Origin: Methanolinea sp.
GTDB taxonomy: Archaea > Halobacteriota > Methanomicrobia > Methanomicrobiales > Methanospirillaceae
DNA: 64,000 nucleotides
NCBI GenBank assembly: GCA_018262855.1
Contig: JADFDO010000010.1
Span: 1-64,000, forward strand
Direction of reading: 5' to 3'
A model generated the notes under the pieces. It was not told the origin of the DNA. It was given only the letters and a program-made list of their open reading frames with translations, and made no database searches. Shown here piece by piece: positions 39,295 through 48,760 of this stretch. A program made the translations under genes and the position numbers. Numbering within the stretch: the first letter of the stretch is position 1; the number at the start of each line of letters is the position of its first letter.

Positions 39295-40941
39295 TTGACC
39301 GCAGCCGGCATTATTCAGAGAATCCGGCCAATCTTTTCTTTCGAAGCACTCTTTCTGCTTGTTCTCATTTGCGGGATTTTCCTGCGATTCTATTCCCTGG
39401 ACCTCAAGCTCCTCCACCATGATGAGGCTATCCATGCCTGGTTTGCGTACGAACTTTTAACAAAAGGATCCTATGCATATGACCCGATGTATCACGGGCC
39501 GCTCCTCTATTATCTCACGGCAGGGATGTTTGCAATCTTGGGAGCATCGGATCTCGTAGCCCGCATCCTGCCTGCATTGTTTGGCGCTGCGATAATCCCT
39601 CTTGTCTATGCAATATACCGGCTTGGCTACCTGGACCGGAAACAGGCGCTGATTGCAGGCCTCTTCATCGCAATATCTCCAGACCTTGTATACTTCTCGC
39701 GTTTCCTCCGCCATGATATCTTCCAGCTCTTTTTCACAGTTCTGATACTCGTTGCATTGCTCGCATACCTGGAACGGGGGAAGCTCATCTATGCACTTGT
39801 TGCAGGGCTGGCGGCAGGGGGAGGGATGTGTCTCAAGGAGGACATGCCCTTATTTCTGGTGCTGATCGTGGCGTTTGGCGTCTTCCTCCTCTGGAGGAAG
39901 CATGTTCCATTCCCACGGACATGGAAGCGTGACATCCTCCTGGGGACCATTGTCGCGGTGGGCATCATGGCACTTTTTTATTCATCCTTCGGAGTCCATC
40001 CGGAGATACTGGAGACCGGGGTCCTTAAAGCGTACACTCACTGGGCTTCCATGCATGGGATGTGCCGTATCTGCGGACCCTGGTTCTTCTACCTCCTTCT
40101 CTTTCTCCTGTATGAGATCCCGGTTTTCTTCCTTGCACTCTTCGGAATGCTCCAGTTTGCTGACCACCACAATCCCTTCCCCGTGTGGATTGGAAGGATA
40201 AAAACATGGATCCACATTCGAAAAAGCCATGGACTTATTCCAGAAGGCGAAGGTTCGGATAAGGGAGAGAAACTGCCAATAGTGCCCTGGAACAGAAAGG
40301 AGCTCTTCTTCCTCTTCTCTGCACTGTGGTTCCTTGCTGGTCTCGCAGCATATGCCTATATCGGCGAGAAAGTGCCGTGGCTAATAATCCACCAGCTGAT
40401 CCCGGCAATATTCATCTCTGTCTACATGATGAGCAGGAAAAAGATGGTCTTTGCCCTGGCGGGATGCGTTTTTCTGATCCTGATGACCTGGCATGTGGCA
40501 TTCATCCCCGCGGATGTGAACGAACCGATTGTGCAGGTCCAGAACTCTGAGGATTTGCGGAAGGTGATGGGACTCATCGATGCCTCCGATTCTGTTGTCA
40601 TCGCATCGGAGAATTACTGGCCGCTCCCCTGGTATTATTACGGGGATGTCTGGAACAAGAAGATGCATTTCTATGGAAAACGGGTTGATGAAGGAACGAT
40701 ATTCCAGGTCAATCCTGACATGGTCATCACCCATGATCAGTCCAGTTTCATATCCCTCCAGGGTTATGACAAAAAGACCTACAAGCTCTCCTACTGGTTC
40801 TCAATCTATGATAACGAGAACCGGATCCCAGAATATTATGTCAAACGGGACGGAAAGATGGGAAGCATCAATATTGACATTTTTACAAAACCAGGGCTCT
40901 ATGAAAAAGCAGGGTTAAACTCCCCGGTTCCTGTCGTCTGA
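39295..40941 (+). CDS. Agl23-like membrane glycosyltransferase (TIGR03663 family)
   Basis: This 548-residue membrane protein has about ten helices. The first loop has LLHHDEAIHAWFAYELLTKG and YDPMYHGPLLYYLTAGMFAI, the acidic and His pattern of the GT39/PMT-like TIGR03663 family. FSRFLRHDIFQLFFTVLI, and later GEKVPWLIIHQLIPAIF, are also typical. In haloarchaea a member is linked to N-glycosylation and flippase activity. The C-terminal ~130 residues form an outer soluble domain. The start is TTG at 39295, with GAGGGAGCGG upstream, nine bases after the S10 stop. It therefore seems to be read with two translation genes, which is unusual. Confidence 0.85.
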   Translation: MTAAGIIQRIRPIFSFEALFLLVLICGIFLRFYSLDLKLLHHDEAIHAWFAYELLTKGSYAYDPMYHGPLLYYLTAGMFAILGASDLVARILPALFGAAIIPLVYAIYRLGYLDRKQALIAGLFIAISPDLVYFSRFLRHDIFQLFFTVLILVALLAYLERGKLIYALVAGLAAGGGMCLKEDMPLFLVLIVAFGVFLLWRKHVPFPRTWKRDILLGTIVAVGIMALFYSSFGVHPEILETGVLKAYTHWASMHGMCRICGPWFFYLLLFLLYEIPVFFLALFGMLQFADHHNPFPVWIGRIKTWIHIRKSHGLIPEGEGSDKGEKLPIVPWNRKELFFLFSALWFLAGLAAYAYIGEKVPWLIIHQLIPAIFISVYMMSRKKMVFALAGCVFLILMTWHVAFIPADVNEPIVQVQNSEDLRKVMGLIDASDSVVIASENYWPLPWYYYGDVWNKKMHFYGKRVDEGTIFQVNPDMVITHDQSSFISLQGYDKKTYKLSYWFSIYDNENRIPEYYVKRDGKMGSINIDIFTKPGLYEKAGLNSPVPVV

Positions 40942-41183
40942 AGTAAAATATTTTCTGGCTGGGATCTCACCTGATTTACGGTACCGCAGACAGTCCATCT
41001 CTTTCAGGATAGGGGATACATCATGAGGGGCTCTTGCATTCTCAAGATACTCTTCCAACAGGGAATTGAATTTCTATTCCCTATCGTCCTGTCAATGCTG
41101 CCTTTAGGAGAACGCTCAGGATGAAGAAGGCCGCAAATTGAAAAGACACATGATTCCCATCGACACACTAGCAAACAAAATAA

Positions 41184-41203
41184 AAAATCGCGAATGCGAT
41201 TTT
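41184..41203. terminator. bidirectional hairpin terminator
   Basis: A perfect 8-bp stem (aaaatcgc at 41184-41191 with gcgatttt at 41196-41203) surrounds a GAAT loop. The A- and T-runs give a T-rich end on both strands. It lies between the convergent Agl23-like and coiled-coil membrane protein genes. The rest of 40942-41230 holds no gene I can support. Confidence 0.55.
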
Positions 41204-41230
41204 CATAAAAATGAATTCAATAGAGATGTT

Positions 41231-42370
41231 CTAACCCAGTTCATCCCATTTCCGGCGCTTTCGGAAGAAATAAACCCCTATTACTGCAACCACAATGAGG
41301 ATTGCCACGACGATTGCAATCAGGATTCCTCCTGAGAATAGCCCTGCAAAAGGATTTCCTATCGAAGCGAACGGGCTTGCATCGAGTGAGGCCTTCAGGT
41401 TACGAGCCTGGGTCAGGGCTTCCTCTGCTTTTACCCTTGCTTCATCTGCTTTTGCTCTCGCTTCATCAAACTTCTTCTGTGAAAGCAAGCCTTTTGCTTC
41501 ACTCACAAGGTCAGCTGCATAATCATGCTGAAGCATGAGGGTGGTCACCCTGGGATCAGAAGTCATGCTCCTGTTCACCTTGAAATCGGTGATCAGGGCA
41601 TTCACTTCACCCATCGATACGTCGACATCGTTGATAGTCTTCTGTATGCCAAGTTCGCTGACCAGAGATTCGGCTGAAGCAAGGGCAGTATTTGCACTGT
41701 TGATCGACTGCGAGGATTTTGTTACGTCGGAGGATTTCTCAGCGTTCTGTATGGCGCTGTTGGCGTCACTGTAAAGTTTCTGGATGGATGAAACATCTAT
41801 ACCCGATACTGCCAGCTGGTCAATCTCACCCTGAAGAGCGGACAACCGGCTCTTCGCGTCGCTAATTGAACTTGTAATCTGAGCCGGGTTGATTACCAAC
41901 TTCTTCTTCGTCACTTCAGTGTTCTTGATGACTGCCCCGGCACTATTCAGTTCCCTCACCACGAGGACATTTTTTTCTTCAGATGTGGTCACCGTTGGTG
42001 CGACCGCCTCCATGGTCACCTTCATCGAGATCTCATTCTTTGACGAGGAATAAGAGAGGACGAACCCATTGATATTCACATTTTGGCCAACGGCAGTTGA
42101 AGAAGGGTTCTCAATACCATTCTGGACAATCGCATAGGTCCAGGTGGGATTGTTCATATCGCTCGACAACTGGAGGGTATTTTCTTGATTAAAAGTTGTC
42201 CCTCCGCTGGAGGGAAAATTGATGACGAAGGTGGTCCTGACCTGTGTCTGCCCCGAGATGAGATCAGACGATGGTAAAATTGCGATGTTTCCAACAGAGA
42301 ATGCTGCAACCCCCTGGATAAAAAGGCACGCCAGGGCAAGAACAACACAATACTTGAGAGACGTGTTCAT
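41231..42370 (-). CDS. signal-peptide coiled-coil protein with C-terminal membrane anchor, CetZ neighbour
   Basis: This is a 379-residue protein. A signal peptide (about 1-23, ending IQGVAAF) is followed by a beta-rich domain (24-165). A long helical, Ala/Ser/Glu-rich section (about 168-330) has coiled-coil character, including the charged repeat KKFDEARAKADEARVKAEEA. Gly/Phe linkers lead to a membrane helix (IAIVVAILIVVAVIGVYFF), and the tail RKRRKWDELG would face the cytoplasm. I do not recognise a family. The ATG lies six bases downstream of the CetZ stop, so the two are co-transcribed. This suggests a surface or membrane partner for the tubulin-like protein. Confidence 0.7.
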   Translation of the reverse strand: MNTSLKYCVVLALACLFIQGVAAFSVGNIAILPSSDLISGQTQVRTTFVINFPSSGGTTFNQENTLQLSSDMNNPTWTYAIVQNGIENPSSTAVGQNVNINGFVLSYSSSKNEISMKVTMEAVAPTVTTSEEKNVLVVRELNSAGAVIKNTEVTKKKLVINPAQITSSISDAKSRLSALQGEIDQLAVSGIDVSSIQKLYSDANSAIQNAEKSSDVTKSSQSINSANTALASAESLVSELGIQKTINDVDVSMGEVNALITDFKVNRSMTSDPRVTTLMLQHDYAADLVSEAKGLLSQKKFDEARAKADEARVKAEEALTQARNLKASLDASPFASIGNPFAGLFSGGILIAIVVAILIVVAVIGVYFFRKRRKWDELG

Positions 42371-42376
42371 GGTGGA

Positions 42377-43555
42377 TCACTCAAACAATGGTTCAATTTC
42401 CTCTTCGAACGAGAGCGGTTTCTTTTCATCAATCTTGGATGCATCGTCCCTGGTGGAACGTGCAATCTCCATCAACTCTTTGATCCGGGGTGCGTTTCCT
42501 ACCGTGGCCAGTACGACTACCGCAGCTACGAAATTGCTGTTGACCGGATAGTCTCCTCCCCGGACTTCAACCCCGGCAATATTCTCTTCGACCCAGCTCT
42601 TTGCCTTTTCAATACCCTTCCTGTCCAGTTCATCAGGAGGACCGGCGACCAGGACCAGGGCTCGTTCCGTGGTGCTGTAATCACATGGGAGAGTGAGCCT
42701 TCCCAGCATTGCTCTCCGTACGAGCGAGATCACCTTTGCAGTCCTGTCTTCGCCCAACAACACCTCCTCCGTTGCTTCTTTCTTCCGGATTGTGCCCTTG
42801 ATATCATTGAAGATCCCCGTCACGGTCTTCCTCTTGTTCTTTGAAATCACCTCGGTAATGGCATATCCGACAGAGGTTATCCCCCCTCCCCTGAGCGTGT
42901 TGATAATCTCGCTTGAATCTACTACCATCTCGCCAATGCCGGCAGACCCCACTTCTCCTGCCCGGAACAGCACACCGAACCGGCGGACTATCTCGTCATT
43001 CAGGCGTGAGAATGCAGACTTGATACTTTCTCCCTCGTTCTTCCACGCACTGTTATCGAAAATGAACGTATTGTCTGCCTCCTTCACAAGGGTTGCAAGG
43101 CTTCTGGCGGCGTTATACGAGTAGAGGCGTCCTTCTTCAGGTGCGGGGAGTATTCCCAGCACATAGACTGGTTCACGGTAGATCTTCTTCAGGGAACGGG
43201 CCAGCACCGGCGTTCCACCAGAGCCGGTTCCCCCTCCAAGACCTGCAACAATCATGAAGGCGTCCACATCATGGGTTCCCCTGGTATCAACTGCACTGAT
43301 GATGCTGTCAATCTCGTCAAATGTGATCTTTGCACCGGAGGCATTGTCAGTACCTACTCCATGACCTTTCACCACGGTCTGGCCAATGAGAAGGCGGTCT
43401 TTCAATTCTATATGTTTCAGGCCCATGAGATCAGTGCGGGCGGTGTTGACTGCGATGCCCCTGAAACTGCGCCTTCCGAGCTTCTTGTCCTGTTCAAGGA
43501 ACATATCAACAATTTTTCCGCCAGCCTGACCAAATCCGATGAAGAAAATCCTCAT
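42377..43555 (-). CDS. cetZ: CetZ-type tubulin/FtsZ-family GTPase
   Basis: This is a 392-residue protein of the tubulin superfamily. FFIGFGQAGGK (4-14) is the first GTP loop. GLGGGTGSGG (105-114) is the tubulin signature, with the GTGSG form typical of CetZ rather than the GTGTG of FtsZ. SAGIGEMVVDSSEI should hold the T7-loop Asp. The C-terminal EKKPLSFEEEIEPLFE is an acidic tail like those used for partner binding. CetZ proteins shape cells in haloarchaea and occur in Methanomicrobia. The ATG at 43555 follows GGTGGGAC; the frame is open to 43576. It is co-transcribed with the membrane coiled-coil protein and divergent from the FAD enzyme gene. Confidence 0.88.
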   Translation of the reverse strand: MRIFFIGFGQAGGKIVDMFLEQDKKLGRRSFRGIAVNTARTDLMGLKHIELKDRLLIGQTVVKGHGVGTDNASGAKITFDEIDSIISAVDTRGTHDVDAFMIVAGLGGGTGSGGTPVLARSLKKIYREPVYVLGILPAPEEGRLYSYNAARSLATLVKEADNTFIFDNSAWKNEGESIKSAFSRLNDEIVRRFGVLFRAGEVGSAGIGEMVVDSSEIINTLRGGGITSVGYAITEVISKNKRKTVTGIFNDIKGTIRKKEATEEVLLGEDRTAKVISLVRRAMLGRLTLPCDYSTTERALVLVAGPPDELDRKGIEKAKSWVEENIAGVEVRGGDYPVNSNFVAAVVVLATVGNAPRIKELMEIARSTRDDASKIDEKKPLSFEEEIEPLFE

Positions 43556-43737
43556 ATTATTGTCCCACCAGCCCACAAATTACGCACGATACTTTATTAT
43601 CCTCGAGTATTATGGTTTCTTGCATGAGTTCAAATACTTTCCTTCTTTTAAATTTCTTTCAAACTTGATTAAACCGCGAAATTTTGAATCCGGAGCCTTT
43701 TTCATCCCGTTTTTCCAATATACTCTGAGTATTCCAT

Positions 43738-44964
43738 ATGAGGATCTGCATCATAGGGGGGGGCCTGACCGGGCTTACCGCAGCGTATCACCTTGGAAAT
43801 GATCACGAGGTCGATATGTATGAGAAACGCCGTTTTCTTGGGGGCTGCCTTTCATCCTATGAGATCGGAGACTACCATATTGAGGAATTCTACCATCACT
43901 GTTTCGCCTGGGACACCCGTCTCTTCTCCCTGATGAGATCGCTTCATATCGCAGACAAACTCGAATGGCTGAGAGGAACCAGCGGGTATTTTTCAGGAGG
44001 GACCGTCTACCCCCTCAACACCCCCGTGGAGATAGTGAAATACCCCCTTCTCTCCCTCACTGACAAAGTGCGGCTTGGCCTCCTTACGCTTCGATCAAGG
44101 AACATGGATGTCGGCCCACTCGATGATATCACTGCCAGGGATTATGTTGTCAGCACTATCGGAGAGCGTGCATACAATTCATTCTTTGAGCCGCTGCTCA
44201 CCAGTAAATTCGGAGAACAGAGGGATGATGTCTCGGCAGCATGGCTGATCAGTCGGATCGGTGTCCGTTCAAACCGGGGCCTTTCAGGTGAACAACTTGG
44301 ATACCTGAAGGGAGGTTTCCATACGCTGATAGAAGCGCTCTCTGCACAGGTGGGCAGACAGTGTGTCGTCCGCCTCCTTGACCCAGTCACTTCCGTTTCA
44401 CGGGAACACGGCTCCTGGAGTGTGAACGGCCAGCAGTATGATGTCGTCATCTCCACGATACCCCCTTCGCTTCTTCCAGGCACCGGGCTGGCAGAAGGAT
44501 TCTCCATCCCCTACCAGGGAGCTGCCTGCATGCTCCTCTCAATGGAGAAGGAAGTGACTTCGGGAATCTACTGGCTGAACATGAAGGAAAGGGCACCCTA
44601 CGGTGCAGTAATCGCCCATACTAACTTTGTGCCTGTTGAGAGGTACGGGGAACATCTTGTCTACCTTGCCTCCTACTTCCAGGGATCCGTCGCCCAGAAC
44701 CTCGACCGGGTAATGATCGATGACTTTTGCCACCGTTTCCATGTCGATCCAGGTGCAATCCGCTGGCACAGGATGGCTGTCGACCCCTATGCCGGGCCGC
44801 TTTATACTGTTGGCTTCCGGAAATACATCCTTCCCTATCAGCAGAATGGCCTTTTCCTCGCGGGAATGTTCTCATCACCGAACTACCCTGAAAGGAGCAT
44901 GAACGGGGCTGTTATTGCAGGAGAAGAGGTTGCTGATCTTGTTTCCAGGAGGGCATCAGACTGA
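43738..44964 (+). CDS. FAD-dependent amine-oxidase/UDP-galactopyranose-mutase-like oxidoreductase
   Basis: This is a 408-residue flavoprotein. The FAD motif is IIGGGLTGLTAAYHL (4-18) followed by E33 in YEKRRFLGG, and the C-terminal FAD segment is FLAGMFSSPNYPERSMNGAVI. It resembles the protoporphyrinogen-oxidase/phytoene-desaturase-like proteins found in archaeal glycan clusters. The substrate is unknown; a lipid or a nucleotide sugar is likely from context. It is the first gene of a tight operon with a GT2, a flippase-like protein and a DUF2298 protein; the GT2 ATG comes two bases after its stop. Confidence 0.8.
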   Translation: MRICIIGGGLTGLTAAYHLGNDHEVDMYEKRRFLGGCLSSYEIGDYHIEEFYHHCFAWDTRLFSLMRSLHIADKLEWLRGTSGYFSGGTVYPLNTPVEIVKYPLLSLTDKVRLGLLTLRSRNMDVGPLDDITARDYVVSTIGERAYNSFFEPLLTSKFGEQRDDVSAAWLISRIGVRSNRGLSGEQLGYLKGGFHTLIEALSAQVGRQCVVRLLDPVTSVSREHGSWSVNGQQYDVVISTIPPSLLPGTGLAEGFSIPYQGAACMLLSMEKEVTSGIYWLNMKERAPYGAVIAHTNFVPVERYGEHLVYLASYFQGSVAQNLDRVMIDDFCHRFHVDPGAIRWHRMAVDPYAGPLYTVGFRKYILPYQQNGLFLAGMFSSPNYPERSMNGAVIAGEEVADLVSRRASD

Positions 44965-44966
44965 TA

Positions 44967-45683
44967 ATGGGTGCCCCTGATATTTCCGCGGTAATCCCTG
45001 TATATAATGACAGGGGGAGCCTTGAGACAGCAATACCCCGATCGATGGAGGTCCTTGCGGGCCTTGATCCCGGATTTGAACTGATAATCGCTGAAGATGG
45101 GAGTAGAGATGGATCGACGGAACTGGTAAGGGGGTGGGAGGCCCGCGATCCGAGAGTGCGTCTCCTGCACAGTGACATACGACTGGGCCGTGGAAAAGCT
45201 CTCACGCGGGCTTTTTGCGAGGCCAGAGGCAGTATCGTGTGCTACTATGACGTGGATATGGCGACAGACATCTCCCATCTCCCCGAACTGATCGGTTCTA
45301 TCAGAGATGGGTTTGATGTTGCAACCGGATCAAGGCTCCTCCCGGGAAGCTCAATTATCAGGAGCGGAGGCCGGGAAGTGGCGAGCAGAGGGTATAATTT
45401 CCTTGTCCGGGCATTCCTTCACAGTTCACTGTTCGATCACCAGTGTGGATTCAAGGCATTCCGGAAGGATCGGATACTGACACTCCTCCTCACCGTCCGG
45501 GACACACACTGGTTCTGGGACACCGAGATCCTGGTCAGGGCGCAGCGTGCCGGATACCGTATCAGGGAATTTCCGGTCCGATGGACAGAAGGACGCGGAA
45601 CCACGGTCCGGCGGAATGATGTACTGACAATGGGGAGATCAATCCTGCGGTTATGGTGGCAGTTGCATGTGGAAAAAGGCTAG
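44967..45683 (+). CDS. GT2 glycosyltransferase, dolichyl-phosphate sugar synthase-like
   Basis: This is a 238-residue GT-A enzyme of the Dpm1 type: ISAVIPVYNDRGSLETAIPR, IIAEDGSRDGST, LGRGKALTRAF, the metal-binding YYDVDMATD, and QCGFKAFRK with WFWDTEILVRA. It should move a sugar from a nucleotide to a polyprenyl phosphate on the cytoplasmic face. No membrane helices are attached. Its last 17 bases overlap the flippase-like gene. Confidence 0.87.
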   Translation: MGAPDISAVIPVYNDRGSLETAIPRSMEVLAGLDPGFELIIAEDGSRDGSTELVRGWEARDPRVRLLHSDIRLGRGKALTRAFCEARGSIVCYYDVDMATDISHLPELIGSIRDGFDVATGSRLLPGSSIIRSGGREVASRGYNFLVRAFLHSSLFDHQCGFKAFRKDRILTLLLTVRDTHWFWDTEILVRAQRAGYRIREFPVRWTEGRGTTVRRNDVLTMGRSILRLWWQLHVEKG

Positions 45684-46638
45684 CACTATCGCTCTCTCAA
45701 CCCTCATCGCGATGGGTATCATCTTCTACATGCTCTTTTCCGTGTGGGATGACCTCCTCCTCGCCATTGAGCATGCAATATGGTATTACCTTGTACTTGC
45801 TGCCATCGTCTGCCTGGCTGCCTGGTGGCTCAGGGGCCTTCGATACAGGAGCATCCTCTCTTCACTCGGGATTCCGGTCGGGATACACTTTTCCACTGCA
45901 TGTATCTTCGTCTCCCAGACCGCAAACCTGATCGTCCCTGCCCGGCTCGGGGATCTCGTAAGGATATTCATACTCGGACATGAACATCACGCTCCGGTCT
46001 CAAAGGGAATCTCCTCACTCGTTGTCGAGAGGGTCTTTGATATTCTGACCGTAGCCCTCCTCGGTGCAGCCGCTCTATTTTTTGTCCTCAATGTTCCCGA
46101 CTGGTTCTATTCCATCATACTCATCCCGATCGCTGCCGGGGTGGTTTTTTTTGGAATCCTTCTCTTTGCAGGGAAATTGTCTTCAAAAAACCGGATTGTC
46201 CAGTATGTGTTCACGCTCCTCGGACAGATAAAAGAGGCTTCCCTCTCACTCCGGGCAGTGGTGCTTCTCTCTGCAAGTTCCATTGTCATCTGGCTCATGG
46301 ACGTCATGGTCTGTGTCTTCGTCGTGCTCATGTTCCAGGACCAGATACCTTTCGCAGTGGTTGTCCTGGCCATCGTTGTCGGAAACCTTGTAAAAGCGGT
46401 CCCTATCACCCCGGGAGGAGTCGGGACCTACGAGATTGCCATGGCCCTTACCTTTACACTTGCCGGGGTCCCTGTTGCAGAGGCGACCATGATAGCCGTA
46501 ATCGACCACCTGATCAAGAACCTCATCACGGCTCTTGGGGGGATCGTCTCTATCTACTATTTCGGTGGGTGGGTGCTCGACAGCATCAGGAATGCCCTTC
46601 AAAAGCGATTCGGGGGTATTCAGTCTGACAGGGTATGA
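45667..46638 (+). CDS. UPF0104/AglD-like membrane protein, candidate flippase
   Basis: This is a 323-residue protein with about eight helices of the lysylphosphatidylglycerol-synthase TM family. ACIFVSQTANLIVPARLGDL, SSLVVERVFDILTVALLGAA and KAVPITPGGVGTYEIAMALT are the family's conserved loops. In Haloferax the same module forms the membrane part of AglD, which acts in S-layer glycosylation. It follows the GT2 gene with overlap and in turn overlaps the DUF2298 gene, so it may move lipid-linked sugars across the membrane. Confidence 0.87.
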   Translation: MWKKASTIALSTLIAMGIIFYMLFSVWDDLLLAIEHAIWYYLVLAAIVCLAAWWLRGLRYRSILSSLGIPVGIHFSTACIFVSQTANLIVPARLGDLVRIFILGHEHHAPVSKGISSLVVERVFDILTVALLGAAALFFVLNVPDWFYSIILIPIAAGVVFFGILLFAGKLSSKNRIVQYVFTLLGQIKEASLSLRAVVLLSASSIVIWLMDVMVCVFVVLMFQDQIPFAVVVLAIVVGNLVKAVPITPGGVGTYEIAMALTFTLAGVPVAEATMIAVIDHLIKNLITALGGIVSIYYFGGWVLDSIRNALQKRFGGIQSDRV

Positions 46639-48760
46639 GGTCCAGGTCCTTTCCGTCGCTTCATGGCTTTTCCTCATTTTTTTTCTTCAGATCTCACTCT
46701 GGCCTTACCTGAAGGGCTCCTTCAGAGAATTCGCATATCCTGTCTCGTTCCCTTCGTCCATACTCCTCCTCACGATCATCTCCTGGTACTGCGGGCTTTT
46801 GAAAATTCCCATCATCCTGGCCCTTATCCCCTTCGTCATCCTCTTCCTTTACGCAGCATGGAGAGGTGAGTATACAAGGGAGGCATTCACCGGGAAAGGA
46901 ACGTGGGTATTTCTCTTCTTACTCTTCTTCTTCTCGATGCTCTGTGTACGGTTCGTGAATCCCAGTATCTCGTATGCAGAGAAATTCATGGATCACGCTT
47001 TCCTGGCATCGATCATGCGGGTGCCCGTGGTTCCCCCACTTGACCCGTGGTTCCTCGGAGGTTACCTTGATGTCTACTATTACCTGGGCTACTGGATTTT
47101 CGGAATCATGGGGATCGTATCGGGAGTCCCATCATTCATCACGTTCAACCTGGCGCTTCCAACTGTCCTCGGCCTCTCGGCAGTCATGATGTATGCAGTC
47201 GGACAACTCCTCACCAGGAAATATGCATATCTCACCCTTGCTACGTTTCTTGTGGTAAATCCCTCCTTCATCTGGCAGATTCTCCAGGGCAAATCACTCG
47301 GGACCGTGTTCTGGGACAGCACACGGACCATTCCCAACACTATCAATGAATACCCGCTCTTCTCGTTCATCTGGGGGGATGTGCATCCCCACGTGATAGG
47401 GATATTCAATCAGGTGTTCTTCATTTTCCTGATGGTGTATGCGTGGACCCGGTGGAATTCACTTGGTTCGCGGGACAGGTTCGTCCTTATACTCCTCTCC
47501 GCAATGAGTCTCGGATCGATGCCGCTCATCAATACCTGGGATGTGATCGTGTATGCTCCTGCGACGCTTGTTACCGGCCTCATTATCTGGTACCGCAGTA
47601 CCTGCCCGGATCCTCGCGATCATAATAAAATCCGCAAAACTGCTGAAGGAATTGTAATAAGATTAAAAAAGAGCGCTTTTTCTGTTGTTGAGAGTGCAGC
47701 AAAGCTGCCTGATGAAGGGATACGAAAAACCCTTGGTAACCTTGCAGCATTCCCTTCTGCATACCTGCTATCCGTGCCTGTTGTCGCGGTTCTTGCGTTC
47801 CTGCCGTTCTACATCCAGATGAATACCCGGGGCATTCAGGGTGTGGGTTTTGTCCATACACCCACGAGCCCGGTTGATTTTCTCCTGGTACATGGTTTTT
47901 TCCTTCTCCTGATGATCATCTACCTTTTTCCCGATATCAGGAGCCGCCCCTGGTTGCTTGTATTCCCGTTCGGCATCGCTCTCACCGGATATACTGCCGC
48001 TGCACTGGCAACCCTCCCTCTTGTGTATCTCATCGCAAGGAAATCACGATCTTCCGCTGATATCATCGCTATCATGGGCCTTTTTGTGATCATCATGTGC
48101 GAGGTGTTCTATCTCGTGGACAATATGGGCGATACCTACTACAGGATGAATACCATCTTCAAGTTCTATATTGCAGCCTGGCTGATGATGGGTGCCTCTT
48201 CATGTGCTATGCTCGCCAATCTGTTTGAGAAGCGGGCTGGCATGGTATCCTGCCCATCCTGGATACCCAGGGTTGCACTGGTCGTGGTATCGGTCGCACT
48301 CCTTGTCGTCCCGCTCGTTCTCCCGCTTGATTCACCCTATAAAGGTGTCACCCTGGACGGTCTTGACTACGTCAGGAGTGCTCATCCTGGTGATGCTGAC
48401 GCCGTGGCATTCCTGCGATCGATTCCCGGGAATATAGGCCTCGTTGAGGCAGAAGGGGGTGACTACACCTACTATTCGCGGGTTTCATCCTTTACAGGCA
48501 TACCGTCTGTCATTGGCTGGACGTTCCACGAATACATGTGGCGTGATGACGCTGATGGCTGGTATGGAAGGCGTATGGCAGATATAAAAACGATATACGA
48601 GCAGCCTGAAAGGACAGAAGTCCTGATGCGGGCATATAATGCTACCCACTTGTATGTCGGAGATCTCGAACGGGAACGATACACAATACGGGTTCATGAA
48701 GCAGGCCTTCCACTCATCTACGACCGCGGGGGAGTCCAGATCTATTCCCTTCCAGCCTGA
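46592..48760 (+). CDS. DUF2298-family multispan membrane protein
   Basis: This 722-residue protein has about 14 helices and belongs to the archaeal/Chloroflexi DUF2298 (TIGR03662, YYY) family. The signature is DPWFLGGYLDVYYYLGYWIF, together with NEYPLFSFIWGDVHPHV and EVFYLVDNMGDTYYRMNTIF. It is distantly similar to GT39-type transferases and is believed to act in surface glycosylation. The extracytoplasmic C-terminal domain includes EAEGGDYTYYSRVSSFTGIP. The start is taken at ATG 46592, a 47-base overlap with the upstream gene; a later non-ATG start is possible. Confidence 0.85.
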   Translation: MPFKSDSGVFSLTGYEVQVLSVASWLFLIFFLQISLWPYLKGSFREFAYPVSFPSSILLLTIISWYCGLLKIPIILALIPFVILFLYAAWRGEYTREAFTGKGTWVFLFLLFFFSMLCVRFVNPSISYAEKFMDHAFLASIMRVPVVPPLDPWFLGGYLDVYYYLGYWIFGIMGIVSGVPSFITFNLALPTVLGLSAVMMYAVGQLLTRKYAYLTLATFLVVNPSFIWQILQGKSLGTVFWDSTRTIPNTINEYPLFSFIWGDVHPHVIGIFNQVFFIFLMVYAWTRWNSLGSRDRFVLILLSAMSLGSMPLINTWDVIVYAPATLVTGLIIWYRSTCPDPRDHNKIRKTAEGIVIRLKKSAFSVVESAAKLPDEGIRKTLGNLAAFPSAYLLSVPVVAVLAFLPFYIQMNTRGIQGVGFVHTPTSPVDFLLVHGFFLLLMIIYLFPDIRSRPWLLVFPFGIALTGYTAAALATLPLVYLIARKSRSSADIIAIMGLFVIIMCEVFYLVDNMGDTYYRMNTIFKFYIAAWLMMGASSCAMLANLFEKRAGMVSCPSWIPRVALVVVSVALLVVPLVLPLDSPYKGVTLDGLDYVRSAHPGDADAVAFLRSIPGNIGLVEAEGGDYTYYSRVSSFTGIPSVIGWTFHEYMWRDDADGWYGRRMADIKTIYEQPERTEVLMRAYNATHLYVGDLERERYTIRVHEAGLPLIYDRGGVQIYSLPA

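Follow-up and report, generated by a model that had tools for sequence, protein, structure and literature searches.

A conserved predicted membrane protein encoded beside CetZ1-type genes in Methanomicrobiales, Halobacteria and other archaea

Introduction

In bacteria, FtsZ is held at the membrane by ZipA and FtsA, anchors that are mostly cytoplasmic, with a conserved short peptide that sits on FtsZ. In archaea, the membrane anchor of FtsZ is SepF (available text of PMC8178401 and PMC8187382). In the best archaeal model, CetZ1 is one of the main proteins of cell shape, and cells without CetZ1 make only disks (PMC10869688, available text). The route by which CetZ filaments reach the cell envelope goes without explanation in the portions of the CetZ literature that we examined.

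Brown and Duggin (2023; PMC9856176) compared the synteny of 27 non-haloarchaeal cetZ genes, all from outside the branch of Halobacteria; the available text reports few similarities for Methanomicrobiales. A membrane partner of CetZ is not mentioned in the available parts of that paper, of PMC11621097 or of PMC10869688. Figure 5 of PMC9856176 shows uncharacterised arCOGs in grey, and the protein described here may be among them. Searches of the CetZ literature for a membrane anchor, the S-layer and cell shape, with most subscription journals and bioRxiv outside their scope, found no paper on such a protein among those listed, and none was found under the gene names HVO_2203, HVO_2204 and HVO_2205.

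Here we describe the gene that follows cetZ in a 64,000-nucleotide stretch of Methanolinea sp. DNA (the window), and we refer to its product as the partner. Its proposed job, to keep a filament of the tubulin superfamily at the membrane, would be like that described for SepF in the available text. The partner differs in its predicted signal peptide, large outer part and true membrane helix, and no SepF domain is among its Pfam matches up to E 1. As with ZipA and FtsA, a short conserved peptide would join filament and membrane; the partner, however, is predicted to lie mostly outside the cell, and itself carries the invariant peptide. On balance, we consider it probable that the partner is a membrane anchor that couples CetZ to the surface layer via this C-terminal peptide.

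The gene pair and the predicted architecture of the partner

The window encodes a CetZ (Table 1) in which the tubulin/FtsZ GTPase domain and the CetZ C-terminal domain are both present (Pfam Tubulin, 4.2e-30; CetZ_C, 4.1e-72; both above cut-off). The nearest solved structure is 4b46 (1.2e-117), which is H. volcanii CetZ1 (PMC9856176, available text), versus 3.6e-80 for 4b45, a CetZ2. The window CetZ is nearer to CetZ1 than to CetZ2 by these structure-sequence E-values, and is of the same type as CetZ1 of Haloferax volcanii and the Halobacteria-like CetZ of Methanomicrobiales and Archaeoglobales treated in the available text of PMC9856176. The start at ATG 43555, chosen in a sequence-only reading of the window that preceded this work, is the most likely one; a GTG at 43576 lies upstream of the conserved MR(I/V)FF start.

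Table 1. Features of the cetZ locus in the window, with residue ranges of the predicted partner domains.
Feature	Coordinates	Strand	Description
cetZ	42377..43555	(-)	CetZ1-type (Halobacteria-like) tubulin/FtsZ-superfamily GTPase, 392 aa; coordinates include the stop
Conserved CetZ C-terminal end (last ten residues, EEEIEPLFE)	42380..42409	(-)	Kept with or without partner
Gap, CetZ stop to partner ATG	42371..42376	(-)	Six bases; genes in the same frame
CetZ-adjacent gene, predicted type I membrane protein (partner)	41231..42370	(-)	379 aa; no family match above cut-off in Pfam or NCBIfam
Predicted Sec-type signal peptide, about residues 1-25 (approximate end)	42296..42370	(-)	Hydrophobicity; AlphaFold2 helix 3-17
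Predicted outer beta-sandwich domain, residues 25-160	41891..42298	(-)	AlphaFold2, pLDDT mostly >90
Predicted outer five-helix bundle, residues 162-331	41378..41887	(-)	AlphaFold2
Predicted transmembrane helix, modelled at residues 348-372	41255..41329	(-)	AlphaFold2; hydrophobicity
Predicted cytoplasmic tail RKRRKWDELG, 10 residues, invariant WDEL	41234..41263	(-)	72-sequence comparison

Both open frames and their close spacing are as the sequence-only reading described them. That reading also gave the partner a signal peptide, an outer beta domain, a long charged coiled coil and a membrane helix, and most of this layout is recovered. The N-terminal signal is hydrophobic (19-residue Kyte-Doolittle mean of at least 2.12 in all 72 Methanomicrobiales sequences compared) and there is one C-terminal membrane helix. 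An AlphaFold2 model built from 60 aligned sequences, those of the window and named loci (mean pLDDT 90.7), agrees with the outer beta domain, which it folds as a sandwich. In place of one long coiled coil, the model has five bundled helices (162-188, 194-212, 216-266, 273-297 and 301-331), although helix 216-266 is long. A flexible linker separates bundle and membrane helix, and confidence in the tail is low (52). The prediction for the partner is thus a type I membrane protein in which the signal peptide, beta-sandwich, helical bundle and single membrane helix are followed by a basic tail inside the cell.

A PDB sequence search with the partner returned no match better than E 0.0035, and weak matches below cut-off, such as DUF4398 (6.6e-4), fall in the helices. 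Fold comparison of the beta-sandwich found Ig-like pilin and adhesin domains best, at Z values of at most 8.8, which is about the background of the tool and points only to common Ig-like beta domains. Two other proteins of the same genome (G000:C25:89108-89581 and G000:C26:79181-79642) match the partner only in its beta-sandwich part; thus, envelope proteins other than the partner also carry the outer domain.

Signal peptide, outer domain and a C-terminal helix with basic residues are also found in PGF-CTERM surface proteins (Pfam PF18204), and this overall look, basic tail included, would suit an archaeosortase-type signal in which helix and tail are cleaved and the protein is lipid-anchored. 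We regard such processing as highly improbable and reject the sorting signal. No PGF-CTERM or other CTERM motif is matched in the window protein (Pfam, NCBIfam), though the same libraries recognise PGF-CTERM in neighbouring genes. By Pfam, the 60 members of alignment A3 likewise give no such match (11 families were matched by any member, with no sorting motif among them). Conservation, moreover, falls after the helix, and the peptide that follows the basic residues is invariant.

Conservation of the pair within Methanomicrobiales

The nearest named relatives of the window loci belong to Methanolinea and other Methanoregulaceae. Relatives of both genes were found in all 41 related genomes and are adjacent in 40; in the remaining genome (G004), which has a completeness of 67%, there are only partial relatives of each gene. 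For a survey of the phylum we searched an even draw of 392 genomes with the partner profile, and the best match adjoins a CetZ in each of the 83 matched genomes of the order (coordinates compared by eye). The pairing first noted in the window is thus kept far beyond the genus; by coordinates, the gap in L014 is also 6. Across 80 named loci, the next gene after cetZ is complete in 71 and always encodes the partner, while seven of the other nine are cut by the contig end (one in an uncertain frame) and two are without room for it.

The flanking genes are conserved too. Among these 80 loci we counted the FAD enzyme in 77, the flippase-like gene in 71, GT2 in 69, Agl23 in 53 and S10 in 45, within flanks of up to 4 kb and with some contigs short. 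Linkage inside the order is therefore weak evidence by itself, and the conserved flanks suit a reading in which the partner is an envelope protein that simply shares a transcript with cetZ, WDELG serving membrane insertion, stability or a partner other than CetZ. We consider this unlikely in view of the more distant genomes discussed below.

In the window, the pair lies within a conserved surface-glycosylation block (39295-48760) with Agl23, the FAD enzyme, a dolichyl-phosphate-hexose-transferase-like GT2, a flippase-like gene and chlor_Arch_YYY. The Agl23, dolichyl-phosphate-hexose-transferase-like and flippase-like genes flank cetZ and the partner gene. The sequence-only reading had proposed a unit that links a filament to the cell surface through direct contact of the two protein tails; the link itself fits the anatomy of the partner and this neighbourhood, but the direct contact is unsupported (see below).

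The C-terminal tail

We compared the tails of 72 Methanomicrobiales sequences (71 named loci and the window). Of these tails, 70 have 10 residues, and the ending is WDELG in 71 and WDELA in one, so that WDEL is invariant; no part of the protein is more conserved. Lysine and arginine average 3.7 in the tail, versus 0.7 in an equal stretch preceding the membrane helix, and topology prediction places the tail inside the cell, in agreement with the earlier reading. That reading gave a basic tail too but stopped it at RKRRKW, and the tail continues to DELG. Synonymous codons for D, E, L and G are interchanged across the Methanomicrobiales loci; thus, selection acts on the peptide. A general C-terminal sorting signal is unsupported for WDELG, which is followed by a stop only once in its own 2.29-Mb genome by pattern search, and a looser pattern did not recur in seven other genomes.

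A tail this short resembles a docking peptide more than a load-bearing domain. This would suit a receptor whose outer domain senses surface-layer state and whose tail signals to CetZ or another cytoplasmic regulator, and both anatomy and linkage fit a receptor as well as they fit a structural tether. No signalling domain is present inside, however, and sequence separates the receptor in no way from the tether; we assign it a low probability.

The acidic CetZ end, given in the earlier reading as EEEIEPLF, is conserved, but one residue was missing (EEEIEPLFE). The form [DE][PR]LF[ED] occurs in 79/79 complete CetZ ends of the named Methanomicrobiales loci. The opposite charges in the window and the conservation of both ends favor the earlier version, a direct electrostatic contact of basic partner tail and acidic CetZ tail. 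The CetZ motif is, however, equally conserved in halobacterial genomes without the partner and is resembled in other CetZ paralogues, and it is therefore not partner-specific. Furthermore, partner tails of Halobacteria are not basic but acidic or neutral (e.g., QQDDYDKLG), so that charge pairing fails there. Tail-to-tail contact is thus unsupported, and we judge it distinctly improbable.

Distribution outside Methanomicrobiales and Halobacteria

In the 392-genome draw, the partner profile matches 51 further genomes at E <= 1e-8, mainly of family f9, which we take for Archaeoglobaceae from the account by Brown and Duggin (PMC9856176, available text) of the orders that carry CetZ1-type genes. 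Outside both the order and Halobacteria there are 29 partner loci, of which 13 directly follow CetZ (in one case a CetZ truncated at the contig edge) and 15 lie apart from it, while one (L111) is cut. The 15 unlinked loci favor mere co-transcription; against it stands the repeated retention of partner homologues beside CetZ1-type genes in several distant families beyond Methanomicrobiales.

Starting from CetZ instead, a signal-helix protein of partner-like layout follows in 19 of 26 loci (25 genomes), a count in which L201 repeats a locus already included and membership of f10, f11, f18 and f24 is mostly by layout. Five f10 genomes match the partner profile at 8.5e-10 to 7.1e-9, and the candidates of f11, f18 and f24 are placed by layout and position only. 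In three partner-less f9 loci (L200, L202 and L204), the gene after cetZ starts with M(R/K)F(I/V)VALTGASGQ and presumably encodes a UbiX-type flavin prenyltransferase.

Tails in these families end in (W/F)DEL(K/R) in f9 and f31, RRWERL in f19 and FRRL or FQRL in f26. The f9 ending is retained where the partner gene is not beside cetZ, and some families are divergent (RKRGIY, RPPLG, FRRL). In five of the 15 unlinked loci, all of f9, the partner gene directly follows a gene with a PGF-CTERM-like end (two of the five confirmed with Pfam and NCBIfam). Directly after one unlinked partner, a second protein with signal, beta, helices, membrane helix and the end GDKW is encoded (L092:2559-3686), perhaps a paralogue.

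A shorter relative in Halobacteria

At 13 of 19 best-CetZ halobacterial loci, a shorter partner relative lies beside cetZ1 and overlaps the CetZ end; rechecking the other six loci found none. YDKLG or a variant of it forms the C-terminus of most of these relatives. Twelve of the 13 (L226 left out) make up profile A5, which aligns with the Methanomicrobiales profile in hhalign with probability 98.8 and E 6.1e-17 over the N-terminal 126 columns, and G209 matches profile A1 at 1.3e-11. Judged by these profile comparisons, the halobacterial and Methanomicrobiales proteins are homologous.

A search of 48 halobacterial genomes with A5 (seven already among the 19 loci, six partner-less and one bearing) found the partner in 17, at E 4e-68 to 7e-103, and none in 31. 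All 17 genes lie at the 3' end of cetZ1; 16 of the matches overlap the CetZ frame and one (L272) is about 65 bases away. The partner is present in all three genomes of a genus in which CetZ1 is 98-99% identical to 4b46, an identity from which we infer that the genus is Haloferax. The overlap with cetZ1 weighs against mere co-transcription.

Among 30 halobacterial loci compared, 12 have the partner. A cofC-like gene, in loci where its motif was found, lies 10-168 bases after cetZ1 if the partner is absent and 769-791 bases if it is present. CetZ1 is present in the partner-less Halobacteria examined. In 40 aligned rows, no CetZ site is conserved at >=85% in partner-bearing and at <=40% in partner-less sequences, and at these thresholds no binding surface is therefore revealed. 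This absence of partner-dependent sites suits a protein that is simply co-transcribed. The presence/absence label changes five times on the tree, of which well-supported branches force only one; several losses within Halobacteria are likely.

Co-occurrence with CetZ

The partner is hardly found without CetZ, and CetZ is often found without a detected partner. Of 134 partner-positive genomes in the 392-genome draw, 132 have CetZ at E <= 1e-90, and the exceptions are a genome with CetZ cut at a contig edge (G084) and one that is 68% complete (G320); 135 of 258 partner-negative genomes also have CetZ. These counts are inflated by shared ancestry, and the profile misses divergent relatives, including most halobacterial ones. 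Such near-complete co-occurrence argues against a protein that is only co-transcribed with cetZ.

Proposed function

A membrane anchor seems to be the most economical reading, with outer domains toward the S-layer and the invariant peptide toward CetZ. The cetZ gene and the gene that follows it would form an old two-gene unit. The partner would cross the membrane once, N-terminus outward. Its outer domains, the beta-sandwich and the helical bundle, would lie beneath or touch the surface layer, and the C-terminal peptide (W/Y)D(E/K)L(G/K/R) would be presented at the inner membrane face. CetZ1-type filaments may bind this peptide, directly or via one adaptor, and so be tethered to the membrane. 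The tether would couple them to the S-layer, much as SepF or ZipA serve FtsZ but with a large outer domain. The analysis shows gene linkage, tail conservation, co-occurrence and, by prediction, the architecture; that CetZ binds the tail, that the partner touches the S-layer and that it acts in cell shape are inferences. An AlphaFold read-through pseudo-complex, in which W replaces the CetZ stop and two residues lead into the partner, was poor (mean pLDDT 69.4), with the CetZ half low and the tail at 38.

The pairing from methanogens to salt-loving archaea suggests an old, overlooked link from the inner skeleton to the cell surface. A broader version is possible, and we put it forward tentatively: an ancient transmembrane linker between the tubulin-like cytoskeleton and the S-layer, comparable in function to integrins, may have been present early across an entire archaeal phylum, with losses in parts of Halobacteria, acting via a five-residue C-terminal peptide bound by CetZ. 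Because Haloferax-type genomes have this conserved neighbor, with its invariant peptide predicted to be cytoplasmic, next to cetZ1, the question is open to direct test. Removal of all of cetZ1 may also affect the overlapping partner gene. If the linker reading is true, the phenotypes of cetZ1 deletions in Haloferax, where the partner overlaps cetZ1, may partly be those of the partner.

CetZ genes additional to those of the pair were also identified. Five genomes of one genus (G029, G034, G039, G206 and G309) encode a second full-length CetZ elsewhere, with no partner adjoining, that is about 75% identical to the window CetZ (identity given for three). Two halobacterial genomes have tandem CetZ-like genes three bases apart (L253 and L254).
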